From Spirochaetaceae bacterium (GTDB taxonomy: Bacteria > Spirochaetota > Spirochaetia > DSM-27196 > Alkalispirochaetaceae), in contig REEH01000129.1 of assembly GCA_007695175.1 (NCBI GenBank), forward strand, positions 1 through 49,341: a DNA stretch of 49,341 nt, in the 5' to 3' direction. This document shows, piece after piece, positions 14,480-44,193 of this stretch. Both the position numbers and the translations under genes were made by a program. The notes under the pieces are model-generated. The model made no database searches. It worked only from the letters and a program-made list of their open reading frames with translations, and had not been told where the DNA came from. Every line of letters starts with the position of its first letter. The stretch's first letter is position 1.

Positions 14480-16302
14480 GTCGCCGCTCACGCCGCATCC
14501 AGAATACAATCACCGCCGCCCTGGCGATTCTCGTATTTGCCACGGCGGTGATCATGGCGATGATATCCTACAGTTTCACCCGGGAAGCGGTGCGCCGCAC
14601 CGCCATGGAGTACACGGCGGAACTGATCGCACAGGTACAGACCAACATCGACTCCTACATCATGCACCTGGAGAATATCGCGGAGGTGGTGCAGCTCAAC
14701 GAGCTGGTGCAGGAATACTTCTCCCTGGAAGCAGGGACGGGCGGTCCCTCCGGGGAGGATGCTTTCTCCTATCAGGGCAGAATCACCTCCTTCCTCAACT
14801 CGATATCCCGCACGCGGGATGATATTTCCCTGATACTGATCGTGGGTGACAATGGAACGGTCCTTACCCACGATCCGGCCATCGTGCTGAACAGCGTGGT
14901 AGTCCTGGAGGAGCAGTCCTGGTATCGCAACGCCCGGGCGTCGGAGGGCCGCGCGGCGGTCTCGCCCTCCCACGTACAGAACGTGGTGGACGGTGTATAC
15001 CGGTGGGTGATCACCTTGAGCCGTGCCTTTGACCATGGGGTAATGCTGGTGGATATGAACTTCTCCGTCATCAACGAGCTCCTCAGCGGGATAAGCTTCG
15101 GAAGGAAGGGATACATCTTCATCGTGGATCGGGAGGGACGGATCGTGTATCACCCGCGACAGGAGCTGATCTACAGCAACCTGGAACAGGAAAATATCGA
15201 TCTGGTCCTGCAGCATCGCAGCGGTGCTTTCTCCGTTGATGAGGGGACGGGCGAGCGGATCTACACCGTCTCCACCTCCGACCGTACGGGCTGGCGGATC
15301 GTGGGGGTGAACTACGAATCCGAGATGGTACAGAACCGTGCCATGATCCAGCAGTACTATTTCTACTGGACGATCCTCTGCATCGTCCTGGCCATCATCG
15401 TTTCCGTGCTTATCTCGCGCCACCTCTCCCGGCCGATACTCAAACTCCGTTCCTCCATGCGCGCCGTGGAGCGGGGGGACTTTGACATTGCCGCCGACGT
15501 GACCAGCAACAACGAAATTGGTGACCTGGCAAGGGACTTCAACATCATGCTCGCCCGGATCAAGGAGCTGGTCCAGCGCAACGCCGAGGAGCAGGAGGAA
15601 AAACGCCGGAGCGAGCTTCTGGCGCTGCAGAACCAGATCACCCCCCACTTTCTGTACAACACGCTGGACTCGATAATCTGGATGGCCGAGGGCAAGCAGC
15701 ACGAGGAAGTAGTGAAAATGGTCTCCGCCCTGGCGCGGCTCCTGCGCCTCTCCATAAGCCGGGGCGACGAACTGGTAAGCATCCGTGACGAGATGGAGCA
15801 TATCCACAACTACCTGACGATCCAGAAGCTCCGGTACCGGGACAAGCTTGATTTTCGTATCCAGGTGGATCCGGAAATCATGCACCTGCAGGTACCCAAG
15901 GTCATCCTCCAGCCGCTTGTGGAAAACGCGATCTACCACGGGATAAAAAACAGGGACGAGGGGGGATGCGTCACGGTGACGGGAATGGTCCGGGACAGGG
16001 AGGTACGGCTTACGGTTGCGGACGATGGAGTGGGCATGGAGGAGGACCAGAGAATCGCCGTGCTCGCGGGGGGCCGGTCCATGACGGCGGGCGAGACCAC
16101 GGCAGGGCCCGCAAACTCGTCGAGGCACACTACGCTGCTCAGCCGTCGCCCCCGGGTAGGCGTGAACAACGTGAACGAGCGGATCAAGCTCTACTTCGGA
16201 CCCGCCTACGGACTCTCTTTCCGCGGAAACAACGGGAGAGGGACCATAGTGGAAATACACCTGCCGATAGTACCGCCCCCGGGAAACGGCGGAGGGGGAT
16301 AA
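14476..16302 (+). CDS. Sensor histidine kinase (YesM/LytS type)
   Basis: A 608-residue inner-membrane kinase. Helices at about 12-33 and 302-325 flank an extracytoplasmic dCache/PDC-like sensor containing FGRKGYIFIVDREGRIVYHP. A HAMP region follows (about 325-375), then a short coiled coil and the His_kinase domain with PHFLYNTLDSI (H391). The ATP-binding part has VENAIYHGIKN (N box) and VADDGVGM (G1). The ATGA overlap with the regulator and a 3-base gap to the anchored sugar-binding protein make these three a unit. The signal is probably relayed from that binding protein. Confidence 0.93.
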   Translation: MSRRSRRIQNTITAALAILVFATAVIMAMISYSFTREAVRRTAMEYTAELIAQVQTNIDSYIMHLENIAEVVQLNELVQEYFSLEAGTGGPSGEDAFSYQGRITSFLNSISRTRDDISLILIVGDNGTVLTHDPAIVLNSVVVLEEQSWYRNARASEGRAAVSPSHVQNVVDGVYRWVITLSRAFDHGVMLVDMNFSVINELLSGISFGRKGYIFIVDREGRIVYHPRQELIYSNLEQENIDLVLQHRSGAFSVDEGTGERIYTVSTSDRTGWRIVGVNYESEMVQNRAMIQQYYFYWTILCIVLAIIVSVLISRHLSRPILKLRSSMRAVERGDFDIAADVTSNNEIGDLARDFNIMLARIKELVQRNAEEQEEKRRSELLALQNQITPHFLYNTLDSIIWMAEGKQHEEVVKMVSALARLLRLSISRGDELVSIRDEMEHIHNYLTIQKLRYRDKLDFRIQVDPEIMHLQVPKVILQPLVENAIYHGIKNRDEGGCVTVTGMVRDREVRLTVADDGVGMEEDQRIAVLAGGRSMTAGETTAGPANSSRHTTLLSRRPRVGVNNVNERIKLYFGPAYGLSFRGNNGRGTIVEIHLPIVPPPGNGGGG

Positions 16303-39349: not shown

Positions 39350-40321
39350 TCAGAAGTTGGAAATCGTGAAGGTGATCACGTCCTGGAAAAGGCCCGGCAG
39401 AACATCCTCAAAGGAGCCGATCGTAACACTCATGGGCAGTGATTCGAATTCGATCGTCGTCCCGAAGAGCAGATCCAGTCCCACCAGAGCGGAATCGGAA
39501 AGATCTACCGTGTTGCCCCCCACCGCAAGCTGGTAGGGGATGGGTGCGCTCCCGGAGTGCGTCTGGTTGACCAGGACGCCGCCGTTTTCGCTCTCCGCGT
39601 CGATGCGGAACCCCGTATTGGTCCGGTACTGAAGAGGAGCCGAGCGCGTGGCACCCGGCACGAGGTTGCCGAAGTCCATGGTGTAACTGCTCTGCCCGGA
39701 GATGGCGATCTGCGCGATCGTGGGCGTGGTGGAGCTGATCGTCACCGTGGCGCGGTCGATCAGTACGAGAGTGTCCGGATCAACCTGCCGTCCCTGGTAC
39801 AGGGAGACCTCAACCTGGTCCTGGTACGTCCCGCGCCGCACAAACTGCTCCTCCGGTATGCGGACGGTAAAGGACCGGCTTTCCGTATTGAAGGCGCTGC
39901 CGGAATTGCCGAAGCTGCCGCGAATCACCTGGTTGTTGGTGAGAGGGACGGTCAGGTCCCGGGCAATCTCGTCGGCGGGGGTGAAGATGTTGTATTCCAG
40001 CCGGGGCAGGAGAACGCCGAAAAAACCCTGGCGTACCATCGTCCGCGGATCAAAGGTGGGGCTGCTGCCCCGCGATACGGTGACCACGTAACCACCGGGC
40101 CCACCCGTATGGCCCACGGTGACGCCGATGGATCCCGAGGCGGGAGAGAAGATCTGGTTGTCCACCACGACGGTGGAGGAAACGGAGACCAGGGAGAACT
40201 GCGGCGGAGAGGGGCCCGCTCCCGGGGGAGGCCCGCCCTGGGCCGTCACCGGTGCGATGACACCGAAGATCCCGGCAGCCGCGAGAACGAGGGTCAGGAT
40301 CACAGTGATGGAACGCGTCAT
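39350..40321 (-). CDS. Two-domain spore-coat-U-like pilus tip protein
   Basis: A 323-residue secreted protein. The signal peptide (about 1-28, ending APVTAQG) is followed by a Pro/Gly-rich linker and two beta-sandwich domains. The halves end in similar strands, GTYQDQVEVSLYQG (about 175) and PGLFQDVITFTISNF (C-terminus), matching the C-terminal strand of spore coat protein U domains. It resembles CsuE-type tip adhesins, whose two domains cap the pilus. No cysteine is present. ATG at 40321 overlaps the usher stop (ATGA), with GGGGAGAG upstream. Confidence 0.75.
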   Translation of the reverse strand: MTRSITVILTLVLAAAGIFGVIAPVTAQGGPPPGAGPSPPQFSLVSVSSTVVVDNQIFSPASGSIGVTVGHTGGPGGYVVTVSRGSSPTFDPRTMVRQGFFGVLLPRLEYNIFTPADEIARDLTVPLTNNQVIRGSFGNSGSAFNTESRSFTVRIPEEQFVRRGTYQDQVEVSLYQGRQVDPDTLVLIDRATVTISSTTPTIAQIAISGQSSYTMDFGNLVPGATRSAPLQYRTNTGFRIDAESENGGVLVNQTHSGSAPIPYQLAVGGNTVDLSDSALVGLDLLFGTTIEFESLPMSVTIGSFEDVLPGLFQDVITFTISNF

Positions 40322-42831
40322 GGACTCTCCCCGGTTAAGAATATCACGTCGTCCAGAATATACTCACCCCGCTCCCCCGCGGGAATGACAAACTCCGCTT
40401 CCACATCCGGGTGGGAGAAGAGCGTCAGGCGATACTGGCCCGGCCTCAAGTCCGGTATTTCAAAAAAGCCCTCCCGGTTGGTGAAAAAGAGATCCTCCGG
40501 ATCCTCCTCGTCCAGACGGAAGACCTCGCCCGCCTCCAGGCCGAGAGGCCGGCCCTCCCCGTCAACGAGGCGCCCCGTGGCGTAGACCGTCGCGGCGCTC
40601 CCCACCACGACGATATACCCGCTGCGGTACCCGGGAAAGAAGGAAACGTCCCGTTCGCCCACGGAGAGACCGTCCGGAAGGCGTGAACCATCGACGCGCA
40701 CCGTCGAATATGTCCAGGAGGCCAGGTCGGGAACGACTGCGGCACGGCCGCTCAGTTCCGCCGTGACGGCGCCCGCGGCGGGGCGGAGCGGAACTGTCTC
40801 ACCCTCCAGGGAGGGTAAGGGTACGAAGATGGCGAAACTGTCCCGCACCGGGCGCGTTACGGCTACGGTTTGTCCCGCCCAGGCAAGCGCCGTCGCGTAC
40901 TGGGCCGACAGGCGCGCCTCGTTCTCCGATTCCCCCTTCAGAAGAAACTCGGGCTGGAGCTGCGCACTGCCGCGGTACATGTCGTACTGCACCGTCCCGC
41001 CCACCTGGTGGGTGTCCTCCGCGACACCGGCACTCCGCTCGTATCGGGCCGACCAGTTGAAAGCTCCAAAGGCACGGGTCGGTACGTTGGAAACCTCCAG
41101 GGAGGATGTCTCGTTCACCAGGTCGTAGTTGACCACCGTATTCAGACGCCGGTCGGGGGAACCGAAACGGATGAACACCCCCCCGGCCCACTCCACCTCG
41201 CCCCCGGCAAAGGTTGGAGAAACCTGCATGTTGATCGCATATCCCCGGGGTGACTGGTGGGAGAGAGAGACGCGCAGGGACGTCTCCGGGTCCGTATCCC
41301 CCGTCAGGGGACGGCTGTGGATGACACCCAGGGTGGCGCTCACCGCTCCGGGGAGACGCTGGTTCAGGGACAGTCCCCCGCGGAGACGGCCCCCCTCCCG
41401 GGGCGGCGCGTGCACACGCTGGTAATCAGGACTCTCCACCAGCCCTGTCACCTCCACCACCGGCCAGCGCCGGGTATGAAGGAGCGAGATCATGTGGGAT
41501 ACCTCCGCCGCGACACCGGCGGAGCCTCCCTGATCGAGGGAAAGGGCGCTCTCGGCGCGCGTGATTCCATACCCCGTGGCGACAAGAGAATGGAGACCCA
41601 GGGCGTACTGCTCCAGGCTTGCCTGCGAGTCCGCGCCGACAGTCCACCGGGGGAGGAGACCGAACCGGTAGAGGCCGCTGAAAAAGAGCGCATCCGCCGA
41701 ATACTCGTTCCTGAGCATTCCCAGGCCGCCGGAATAGAGGTGACGACCCGGTCGCAGCAGCTGCGGGGAGAAGGTGAACTGTTCCTCCAAGAGAACGACC
41801 TGCGACGCCTCACCCTCTCCATCCTCATCGTCTTCGGCATCCTGTACTACCCGCACGCGGCTGATCCCGCGTCCGAGCGGAATGTCGGGCAGCACGTAGG
41901 GTCCCTCGTTCAGATTATCCCGGCGGTACCGGCGCTCGTTCAGGTAGATCTCGACCGGTGCGTAGCGCGGTACGACAAACCGGATGTCCTCGCTTCTGAA
42001 AAGGGGGGTATCCGGATCGATCTCGTCCAGGCGCGTCGCCGAGAAACCGAGAATTTCCGGCCCGTTGAAGAGCGCCCCCCGCTGATACCGGACGAGCCCC
42101 GCTTCTCCGCGAATCTGCTGTTCCGGGAAATCCCGCACGAGCCGGGCGTATCGCAGGGAGAAGGGATCGTCATCGAGCGTTTCCTGCGTGAGCGGGGCGG
42201 TGGAAAAGCCCATGGAAGCCTCGGCGACCCAACCGCGGTAGTTCAACACCGGTTCAAAACCGAAAAAGAAGGTATCTCCCTCGTCGAGGCTTGAAACGAC
42301 GCCCCGGGCCAGGAGGTTGGTATAGCCCGAGAAGTCCACGGGCTGCTGCAGGTTGGGCGGGGGAGCGCGCCGTTCCGCACCGATCTCGCGCTCCCGCAGG
42401 CGGTCCGGAGCGATGGATAGTCGCAGCTCCACCTCTTCCGGGCCGTAGACGAGGGTCAGGCCCGCCGCTTCAAAGGCCTCGATCCCGATCAGCGCCTCGT
42501 CGCCGATTAGCTCATCCAGAGCCGCCAGAGCCGCCGCGTTGAGAAAGGGCTCCACCACGAGCTCAAAGGCCGCTCCACCGATGCGCACCTCCTGGCCGTT
42601 TCCGGAGAGCAGCGTCTGCACCTCCCCGAGAAACTCCCCGTTTCGGTACACCGGCACCACCAGATCCTGGTCACCGTTGGCCCCGAAGATCTCCGCAAAG
42701 AGTTCCGCCTCGTCGAAGTCATCATTTTCCTGCGTGGCAAGCTCCACCGGAGCGGTTACGATGAGGAACAGGGAAGCGAGAATCGCGAAAGCGAAAGGAA
42801 GACTGGTGCGGCCCGTCCGGTGCCGGTTCAT
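40318..42831 (-). CDS. Outer-membrane fimbrial usher
   Basis: An 837-residue usher protein that threads pilin subunits through the outer membrane. After a signal peptide (about 1-32) there is an N-terminal chaperone-binding region, the 24-strand barrel with the conserved stretch PEILGFSATRLDEIDPDT...YAPVEIYLNERRYRRDNLNEGPYVLPDIPLGRGISRVRVV (plug vicinity), and C-terminal domains including a carboxypeptidase-like GRLVDGEGRPLGLEAGEV. It contains no cysteine, so the C-terminal disulphide of FimD-type ushers is absent. Closest in layout to the sigma/archaic (Csu-like) branch. Sits two bases after the chaperone. Confidence 0.88.
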   Translation of the reverse strand: MNRHRTGRTSLPFAFAILASLFLIVTAPVELATQENDDFDEAELFAEIFGANGDQDLVVPVYRNGEFLGEVQTLLSGNGQEVRIGGAAFELVVEPFLNAAALAALDELIGDEALIGIEAFEAAGLTLVYGPEEVELRLSIAPDRLREREIGAERRAPPPNLQQPVDFSGYTNLLARGVVSSLDEGDTFFFGFEPVLNYRGWVAEASMGFSTAPLTQETLDDDPFSLRYARLVRDFPEQQIRGEAGLVRYQRGALFNGPEILGFSATRLDEIDPDTPLFRSEDIRFVVPRYAPVEIYLNERRYRRDNLNEGPYVLPDIPLGRGISRVRVVQDAEDDEDGEGEASQVVLLEEQFTFSPQLLRPGRHLYSGGLGMLRNEYSADALFFSGLYRFGLLPRWTVGADSQASLEQYALGLHSLVATGYGITRAESALSLDQGGSAGVAAEVSHMISLLHTRRWPVVEVTGLVESPDYQRVHAPPREGGRLRGGLSLNQRLPGAVSATLGVIHSRPLTGDTDPETSLRVSLSHQSPRGYAINMQVSPTFAGGEVEWAGGVFIRFGSPDRRLNTVVNYDLVNETSSLEVSNVPTRAFGAFNWSARYERSAGVAEDTHQVGGTVQYDMYRGSAQLQPEFLLKGESENEARLSAQYATALAWAGQTVAVTRPVRDSFAIFVPLPSLEGETVPLRPAAGAVTAELSGRAAVVPDLASWTYSTVRVDGSRLPDGLSVGERDVSFFPGYRSGYIVVVGSAATVYATGRLVDGEGRPLGLEAGEVFRLDEEDPEDLFFTNREGFFEIPDLRPGQYRLTLFSHPDVEAEFVIPAGERGEYILDDVIFLTGESP

Positions 42832-42833
42832 GC

Positions 42834-43553
42834 TCAGTTGAAGCGAAACCTCATCGAGGCAGGTTCAAAGGGCAGCTGGTCCCGGGGCACCCGGACTCGC
42901 CGATCCTCCCCGGGAAGCACGTTGACACCCAGGAACGCGTCAATCGTTTCAAAGTCGATTTCCTGAACCGCCCCATCCCCGTCTTCCAGGATCACCGCTC
43001 CCTGAAAGAAGAGCTGGTGCCGCGTCCCGTTGTTGCGCAGATTCACCGTCACACGTTCCGGATCGTCCACGTCGATACTGAGCACCTCCAGGTCCGGGGC
43101 GGTGCCCGGAGGGCGTACGTAGAGTGTCGCCCGGTAGCGCAACATGAACTGCAGACCTGACGCCTCCGTCTGGCCCCGGTTGAGGTTTATGGGCAGCTGC
43201 TCCGCCGTAACGCGAAAGGGAAGCTCCCGCTCCGGCGTACTCTGTCCGATCCAGCGGGCGCGCACGGTCTGACTCGCCCCGCGGCGCAGGACGAGCTGGG
43301 AGGGAAAGAGCTGGATCTGGTCGGAGGCGTCCTCGTTCAGCTCCGTCCCGTCCGGATCGATCCGTCGAGTGGCCACGCGCAGCTCGATCGCTACCGGTGA
43401 GTTGCCCGGGTTGGTAACCTCAAAGGTGGTTGTGGGCGACGATCCGGAGAGGTCGATCACGGCGGACATGGGTGTAAGCTGAAAGGACCATACTGCCGCC
43501 GGCCAGGCGATGAGCAGGACGGGAATCAGCAGGGAACGAAGTGAGTTTTTCAT
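42834..43553 (-). CDS. Periplasmic fimbrial chaperone (PapD/CsuC-like)
   Basis: A 239-residue secreted chaperone with signal peptide (about 1-23, AVWSF) and two immunoglobulin-like domains. FQLTPMSAVIDLSG starts the first domain; the F1-G1 region reads PSQLVLRRGASQTVRARWIG, the strand that donates to pilin subunits. The second domain is shorter than PapD. There is no cysteine, so the disulphide of FGL chaperones is missing. It follows the pilin gene after a terminator-like hairpin, giving lower expression than pilin. Weak ribosome site before ATG. Confidence 0.85.
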   Translation of the reverse strand: MKNSLRSLLIPVLLIAWPAAVWSFQLTPMSAVIDLSGSSPTTTFEVTNPGNSPVAIELRVATRRIDPDGTELNEDASDQIQLFPSQLVLRRGASQTVRARWIGQSTPERELPFRVTAEQLPINLNRGQTEASGLQFMLRYRATLYVRPPGTAPDLEVLSIDVDDPERVTVNLRNNGTRHQLFFQGAVILEDGDGAVQEIDFETIDAFLGVNVLPGEDRRVRVPRDQLPFEPASMRFRFN

Positions 43554-43636
43554 ATCTCTACCAATATATCAGAGCGGAACCGGAAATTCTCGGGGCGGAA
43601 ATACCCGCGCAAGCCGCCGGGCGCGCACGAAAAGAA

Positions 43637-43662
43637 AGGCCCGACGGTTGATCGCCGGGCCT
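43637..43662 (-). terminator. Intrinsic terminator between pilin and chaperone genes
   Basis: On the minus strand AGGCCCG-GCGATCAACCGT-CGGGCCT forms a stem and is followed by TTCTTTT. It lies 26 bases after the pilin stop. Partial readthrough would allow much pilin and little chaperone/usher. Confidence 0.8.
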
Positions 43663-43688
43663 CGTTTTCTGTATGCAGGTGGGGTGTG

Positions 43689-44144
43689 TTACTGTTGTTC
43701 AATCGTAAACGTCACCTCGTCCGTGTAGGTGCCGGAAGGTATCCCCAACGCGGCCGCGTAGGTAACGCGTATCTCCCGGTTCTGACCCACCGTCGCACTC
43801 TGGCTGGCACCGAAAATGTCCGCACCCTGAGAAACGGCCTGACCCGCGTAGAACAGTTCGTAAGGATGTGACTCGGGACCATTCGTAAACTCAAAACCGT
43901 TCACCGACGAAGCCGAAACGTTGTAGGGTACGTTACTCACCTCGACAGCTGTACCAACCAGAAGGTTCGTCTGAGCCACGTTGAGATTGAGGTTACCCGC
44001 CGCCGGTGCCGGCGTAATGGTGATATTGACGTAGGGACCGATGACGCCACTCAGAACGAGCTGCGCCGTATCAGAAACCTGCGCAAAAACTGCGCCGCTA
44101 CCCAGCACAAACAGAACCACCAGTACAACAAATACTTTCTTCAT
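43689..44144 (-). CDS. Major pilin, spore-coat-U-like
   Basis: A 151-residue secreted subunit. The signal peptide is 1-23 (KKVFVVLVVLFVLGSGAVFAQ). The mature protein begins QVSDTAQLVLSG, is beta-rich and low in charge, and ends GTYTDEVTFTIEQQ, the terminal strand of SCPU/Csu pilins. The N-terminal strand with alternating hydrophobic residues fits donor-strand exchange. No cysteine is present, unlike CsuA/B-type pilins. ATG at 44144 with GAGG upstream; strong promoter TTGTCG-17-TATACT at 44202-44230, terminator at 43637-43662. Confidence 0.78.
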   Translation of the reverse strand: MKKVFVVLVVLFVLGSGAVFAQVSDTAQLVLSGVIGPYVNITITPAPAAGNLNLNVAQTNLLVGTAVEVSNVPYNVSASSVNGFEFTNGPESHPYELFYAGQAVSQGADIFGASQSATVGQNREIRVTYAAALGIPSGTYTDEVTFTIEQQ

Positions 44145-44193
44145 ATTGGACCTCACTTTTTGATCGTAACTATGCCCCGACGGGGCCTTTTCA

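Follow-up and report, generated by a model that had tools for sequence, protein, structure and literature searches.

A cysteine-free archaic-like chaperone-usher pilus in a spirochaete whose exported proteins avoid cysteine

The window analysed here is a contig of 49,341 nucleotides (REEH01000129.1) from a spirochaete whose genus is Alkalispirochaeta-like (Spirochaetia). Four closely packed genes lie on its minus strand at positions 39350-44144, in the order pilin, chaperone, usher and tip subunit. The major pilin (43689..44156, 155 aa from a GTG) consists of a signal peptide and one Ig-like pilin domain; an alternative ATG start is at 44144, the end given in an earlier, sequence-only reading of this DNA. 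The pilin is followed by a PapD_N periplasmic pilus chaperone (42834..43553, 239 aa), whose nearest solved relative is CsuC, an outer-membrane usher (40318..42831, 837 aa) and an SCPU-like, two-domain tip subunit that is a putative adhesin (39350..40321, 323 aa). The chaperone and usher genes are separated by 2 nt, and there is a 4-nt overlap between the usher stop and the tip start. As the sequence-only reading had stated, there is no cysteine in any of the four translated ORFs (0 of 1,554 residues).

The gap between the pilin and chaperone genes contains a terminator-like hairpin on the minus strand (43636..43663), with an 11-bp stem followed by TCTTTT. Support for the hairpin is weak, as the fold z-score of the whole region is only -1.27 and terminator matches are no more frequent than in shuffled sequences. 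Possibly it acts as a partial terminator that leaves the pilin in excess over the assembly proteins.

The operon encodes an archaic (Csu-like) chaperone-usher pilus, with pilin, chaperone, usher and two-domain tip. Searches of the PDB with single window proteins were weak, and it was profiles built from relatives that gave the matches. The chaperone matches Pfam PF00345 above the cut-off (8.5e-10), and the profile of its relatives finds CsuC (1.2e-9) and EcpB (6.5e-4), with no classical chaperone among the matches listed. When searched alone, the usher matches PF00577 at 7.6e-5, under the curated cut-off; a profile of 23 relatives finds FimD (7e-15) and PapC (8e-12). The C-terminal region of the usher weakly resembles carboxypeptidase-regulatory domains. 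For the tip, the Pfam SCPU match (0.0033) is under the cut-off, the profile matches are CupE (4e-4), CsuA/B (6e-4) and CsuE (2.4e-3), and the structural model is poor (pLDDT 52). The pilin has no match in Pfam. Its AF2 model (pLDDT 80) is an Ig-like pilin, and the closest solved folds are the chaperone-usher pilins FimA, CsuA/B and CupE1 (Z 7-9.5).

In combination, the PapD-like chaperone, outer-membrane usher and Ig-like pilin with its presumed N-terminal donor strand place the operon among chaperone-usher systems, and the CsuC-type chaperone and SCPU-type subunits are those of the archaic subgroup. The one archaic feature that we found missing is the disulphide of the pilin domain (Cys16-Cys62 in CsuA/B). 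In a quick usher tree, the archaic references are two Csu-type ushers only, both on long branches. Spirochaete ushers are already on record in transporter classification (PMC4827864).

Csu of Acinetobacter baumannii and CupE of Pseudomonas aeruginosa have the same gene order (pilin-chaperone-usher-two-domain tip) and Ig-like pilin fold as the window operon, which also resembles them in its CsuC-like chaperone and its CsuA/B- and CsuE-like subunits. Unlike their counterparts, the window pilin and tip do not have the conserved subunit disulphide, and the sequences are too distant for the Pfam SCPU and Usher cut-offs. The cysteines of the CsuA/B Cys16-Cys62 disulphide are marked invariant (PMC4654587), and the C41-C85 disulphide of CupE1 is highly conserved (PMC10104325). 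Type 1 pili (Fim) of E. coli share the pathway and the pilin fold, and FimC likewise has no mature cysteine. However, FimA, FimF, FimG and FimH have cysteine pairs and FimD has four mature cysteines.

Exported and cytosolic proteins were compared in a 508-kb sample of the source genome. The exported set (n = 38) was defined by strict signal peptides, with the pilus operons left out, and the cytosolic set comprised 208 proteins. Cysteine is absent from 31 of the 38 exported proteins versus 22 of the 208 cytosolic ones (Fisher p 1.3e-18), and its rate is 0.115% versus 1.08%; these figures are approximate because the signal-peptide calls rely on a home-made heuristic rule, and cytosolic proteins miscalled as exported would raise the exported cysteine count, not lower it. 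Several of the seven cysteine-bearing exceptions resemble false signal calls, and one is the TlpA-like thioredoxin described below. Finding no cysteine in the ~1,450 mature residues of the pilus proteins has p ~1.5e-7 at the cytosolic rate of 1.08% and p ~0.18 at the 0.115-0.12% of the other exported proteins. The absence is non-random, yet normal for exported proteins of this genome. As the genome keeps cysteine out of exported proteins generally, a cysteine-free exported operon is to be expected. The genome has another complete pilin-chaperone-usher-tip operon (G000:C87, L040:8107-12888), ~24-35% identical to that of the window, and its four proteins are likewise cysteine-free. Counting cysteine in other secreted proteins, a check proposed in the sequence-only reading, thus revealed no disulphide-rich secretome.

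In the source genome (G000, a 97%-complete draft) we found no match to DsbA, DsbB or VKOR with searches whose controls were positive (E. coli for DsbA and DsbB, others for VKOR). The sequence-only reading had suggested looking for dsbA and dsbB, and the outcome is in its favor. Among 100 relatives searched, DsbB was found in none and VKOR in one distant relative. G000 does encode a CcdA-like membrane protein adjoining an exported, TlpA-like WCPPC thioredoxin (L155:14252-15193 and 15183-15959, both minus strand). The source genome is thus predicted to have a thiol-reducing branch without a detectable oxidizing branch.

Several DsbA-like matches in relatives were set aside on reading their sequences. 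The one in G003 is DsbC-like, sits where a contig begins and may be contamination. The matches in G083 and G063 look like cytosolic FrnE-type proteins, the one in G378 is FrnE-like, and G008 and G068 each have a thioredoxin-fold protein anchored in the membrane. None of them changes the result for G000.

Outside spirochaetes, the nearest operons are plasmid-borne and come from Alpha- and Gammaproteobacteria and from one cyanobacterium. This small comparator set includes Indioceanicola, Niveispirillum, Qipengyuania, Novosphingobium, Sphingobium, Vibrio and Photobacterium, as well as the cyanobacterium Leptolyngbya. We take the proteobacterial genera to be aerobic or facultative, with Dsb systems. 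Their CsuC-like operons have the same gene order where complete, and their chaperones (10/10) and nearly all of their ushers (7/8) have no mature cysteine. Because these homologues are also cysteine-free, the chaperone and usher of the window are uninformative on redox conditions. The pilins and tips differ: all six proteobacterial pilins and all seven tips keep a cysteine pair, whereas 33 of 35 spirochaete pilins have no mature cysteine, nor do 24 of 29 spirochaete tips, in which the cysteine columns align less surely than in the pilins. The loss extends across the spirochaete clade, and the refuting observation named in the sequence-only reading, conserved cysteines in close homologues from anaerobes, was not made. 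The earlier claim that the usual disulphides of such systems are missing therefore applies to the pilin and tip, but not to the chaperone and usher.

In spirochaete pilins the column of the first cysteine is occupied by V, L or I, and that of the second is mostly Ser (25/35). The window pilin has V43 and S74 at these two sites. Via structural alignment, model residues 41-42 fall on residues 14-15 of CsuA/B, which puts V43 at the Cys16 site.

Spirochaete tips with cysteine pairs occur in G151, G121 and G378, where we found no convincing DsbA. In one operon of G378 (L167, G378:C153), several genes are pilin-like and two are tip-like; one of its tips has its cysteine pair at 52/72. On the Leptolyngbya plasmid (L084:803-1942), one pilin is cysteine-free and a second has a close pair (126/132) that is off the archaic site. 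The phylum of Leptolyngbya has a VKOR-based system (PMC12453122).

Of 198 relatives, 43 have a homologous usher, and all of these belong to the class; when the chaperone profile was run across the phylum, no match fell outside the class. The named usher relatives are Alkalispirochaeta alkalica DSM 8900 and an uncultured Spirochaeta (profile from a six-row alignment). In family f16 (L164-L170), where the genomes are small (1.5-2.9 Mb), the ushers far exceed the usual length, at 1,040-1,250 aa. Spirochaete ushers form one clade in the quick tree (SH-aLRT 99). The subunit disulphide was probably lost in one deep event at the base of this clade. As the clade makes a single loss likely, its link with the missing Dsb enzymes amounts to a single contrast.

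Several genomes of the genus have rnf genes beside the pilus operon, whereas spirochaetes of other families carry the operon without this neighbour. The adjacency is synteny at the level of the genus, and Rnf, a complex of the inner membrane, gives no information on the periplasm, so the support for a reducing periplasm that the sequence-only reading drew from it falls away. At an rnf-adjacent pilus operon of the same genus (L044:5312-10211, G004:C363), the usher frame is broken by a TGA, possibly reflecting a pseudogene or an assembly error.

Lysine is nearly absent as well, with 2, 1, 1 and 0 residues in the four proteins, most of them in signal peptides. The lysine rate in the source genome is 0.75% for exported versus 3.06% for cytosolic proteins, and the pilus is below the exported rate (a single lysine among 1,252 scored residues, p 9e-4). 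Among spirochaete ushers, K/(K+R) drops strongly with GC (Spearman -0.83, computed on pseudo-replicated rows). The GC content of 62% and the strong Lys-to-Arg skew indicate composition pressure on these proteins, in line with low cysteine being a by-product of base composition or chance. We regard that explanation as highly improbable and in effect refuted, because cytosolic proteins of the same genome contain 1.08% cysteine and spirochaete homologues from genomes of 40-45% GC are almost equally cysteine-poor.

Alternatively, the absence could be an inherited family trait, if this chaperone-usher subgroup never had or early lost its cysteines for structural reasons, regardless of periplasmic redox conditions. 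This would fit the cysteine-free chaperones and ushers of Alpha- and Gammaproteobacteria, the Leptolyngbya pilin without cysteine and the single clade of spirochaete ushers. It is nevertheless rather unlikely, as the pair is kept in every pilin and tip of this subgroup from Proteobacteria, and unrelated exported proteins of the source genome, which a pilus-specific reason would not reach, are cysteine-free too. That breadth (31 of 38 exported proteins) also counts against the view of the sequence-only reading, a pilus-specific adaptation to a reducing, anaerobic habitat with Rnf as corroboration. The presence of an exported thiol-reducing pair and absence of an oxidizing pair agree with it, but two of the four proteins are uninformative and the Rnf adjacency is only synteny within the genus; we consider it improbable. 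A reducing periplasm as such accords with the absence of DsbA, DsbB and VKOR, the avoidance of cysteine in exported proteins, the cysteine-free relatives and the CcdA/WCPPC pair. Anaerobic life as the cause is unproven, given that there was probably one deep loss and that the pair is missing, too, from a pilin of the same subgroup in a cyanobacterium.

We think it likely that the pilus is cysteine-free through the lineage's missing detectable disulphide pathway and a general purge of cysteine, with the pilin and tip having lost the archaic disulphide. Lacking detectable disulphide formation in the envelope, the spirochaete lineage would have purged cysteine from its exported proteins ("cysteine exclusion"). 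The chaperone and usher would have been inherited from a subgroup that makes little use of cysteine in all hosts examined. The archaic subunit disulphide would have been dropped from the pilin and tip, with V, L or I replacing the first pilin cysteine and mostly Ser the second. Subunits would then have to fold and bind the chaperone without being oxidized first and, by homology, would be assembled by donor-strand exchange. The cysteine-free pilus presumably assembles normally. Missing oxidation may thus have caused the cysteine loss; the cysteine-free Leptolyngbya pilin counts against this causal reading, as it places a loss outside anaerobes as well. So do the cysteine pairs in the tips of G151, G121 and G378, the dependence of the contrast on essentially one deep event, and the draft state of the genome.

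Exported proteins of obligate anaerobes tend to exclude cysteine, and such exclusion without an oxidative folding pathway is a known phenomenon (PMC12453122). Here, likewise, the exported proteome is nearly cysteine-free and DsbA, DsbB and VKOR were not detected. In this case, though, the exclusion is traced to particular residues in pilus proteins, and related pili have kept the bond. What remains of interest is the disulphide-free archaic-like pilus itself, a modest new variant. We lean towards the view that archaic-like pili throughout spirochaetes load their subunits onto the chaperone, exchange donor strands and attain fibre strength without a subunit disulphide, and that a hydrophobic residue and Ser took the place of the otherwise invariant cysteine pair early on. 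Chaperone-usher subunits are usually described as disulphide-bonded, and a natural family without the bond would offer a comparison for its role. The loss of a folding pathway may thus be readable at individual positions of the proteins that it once served.
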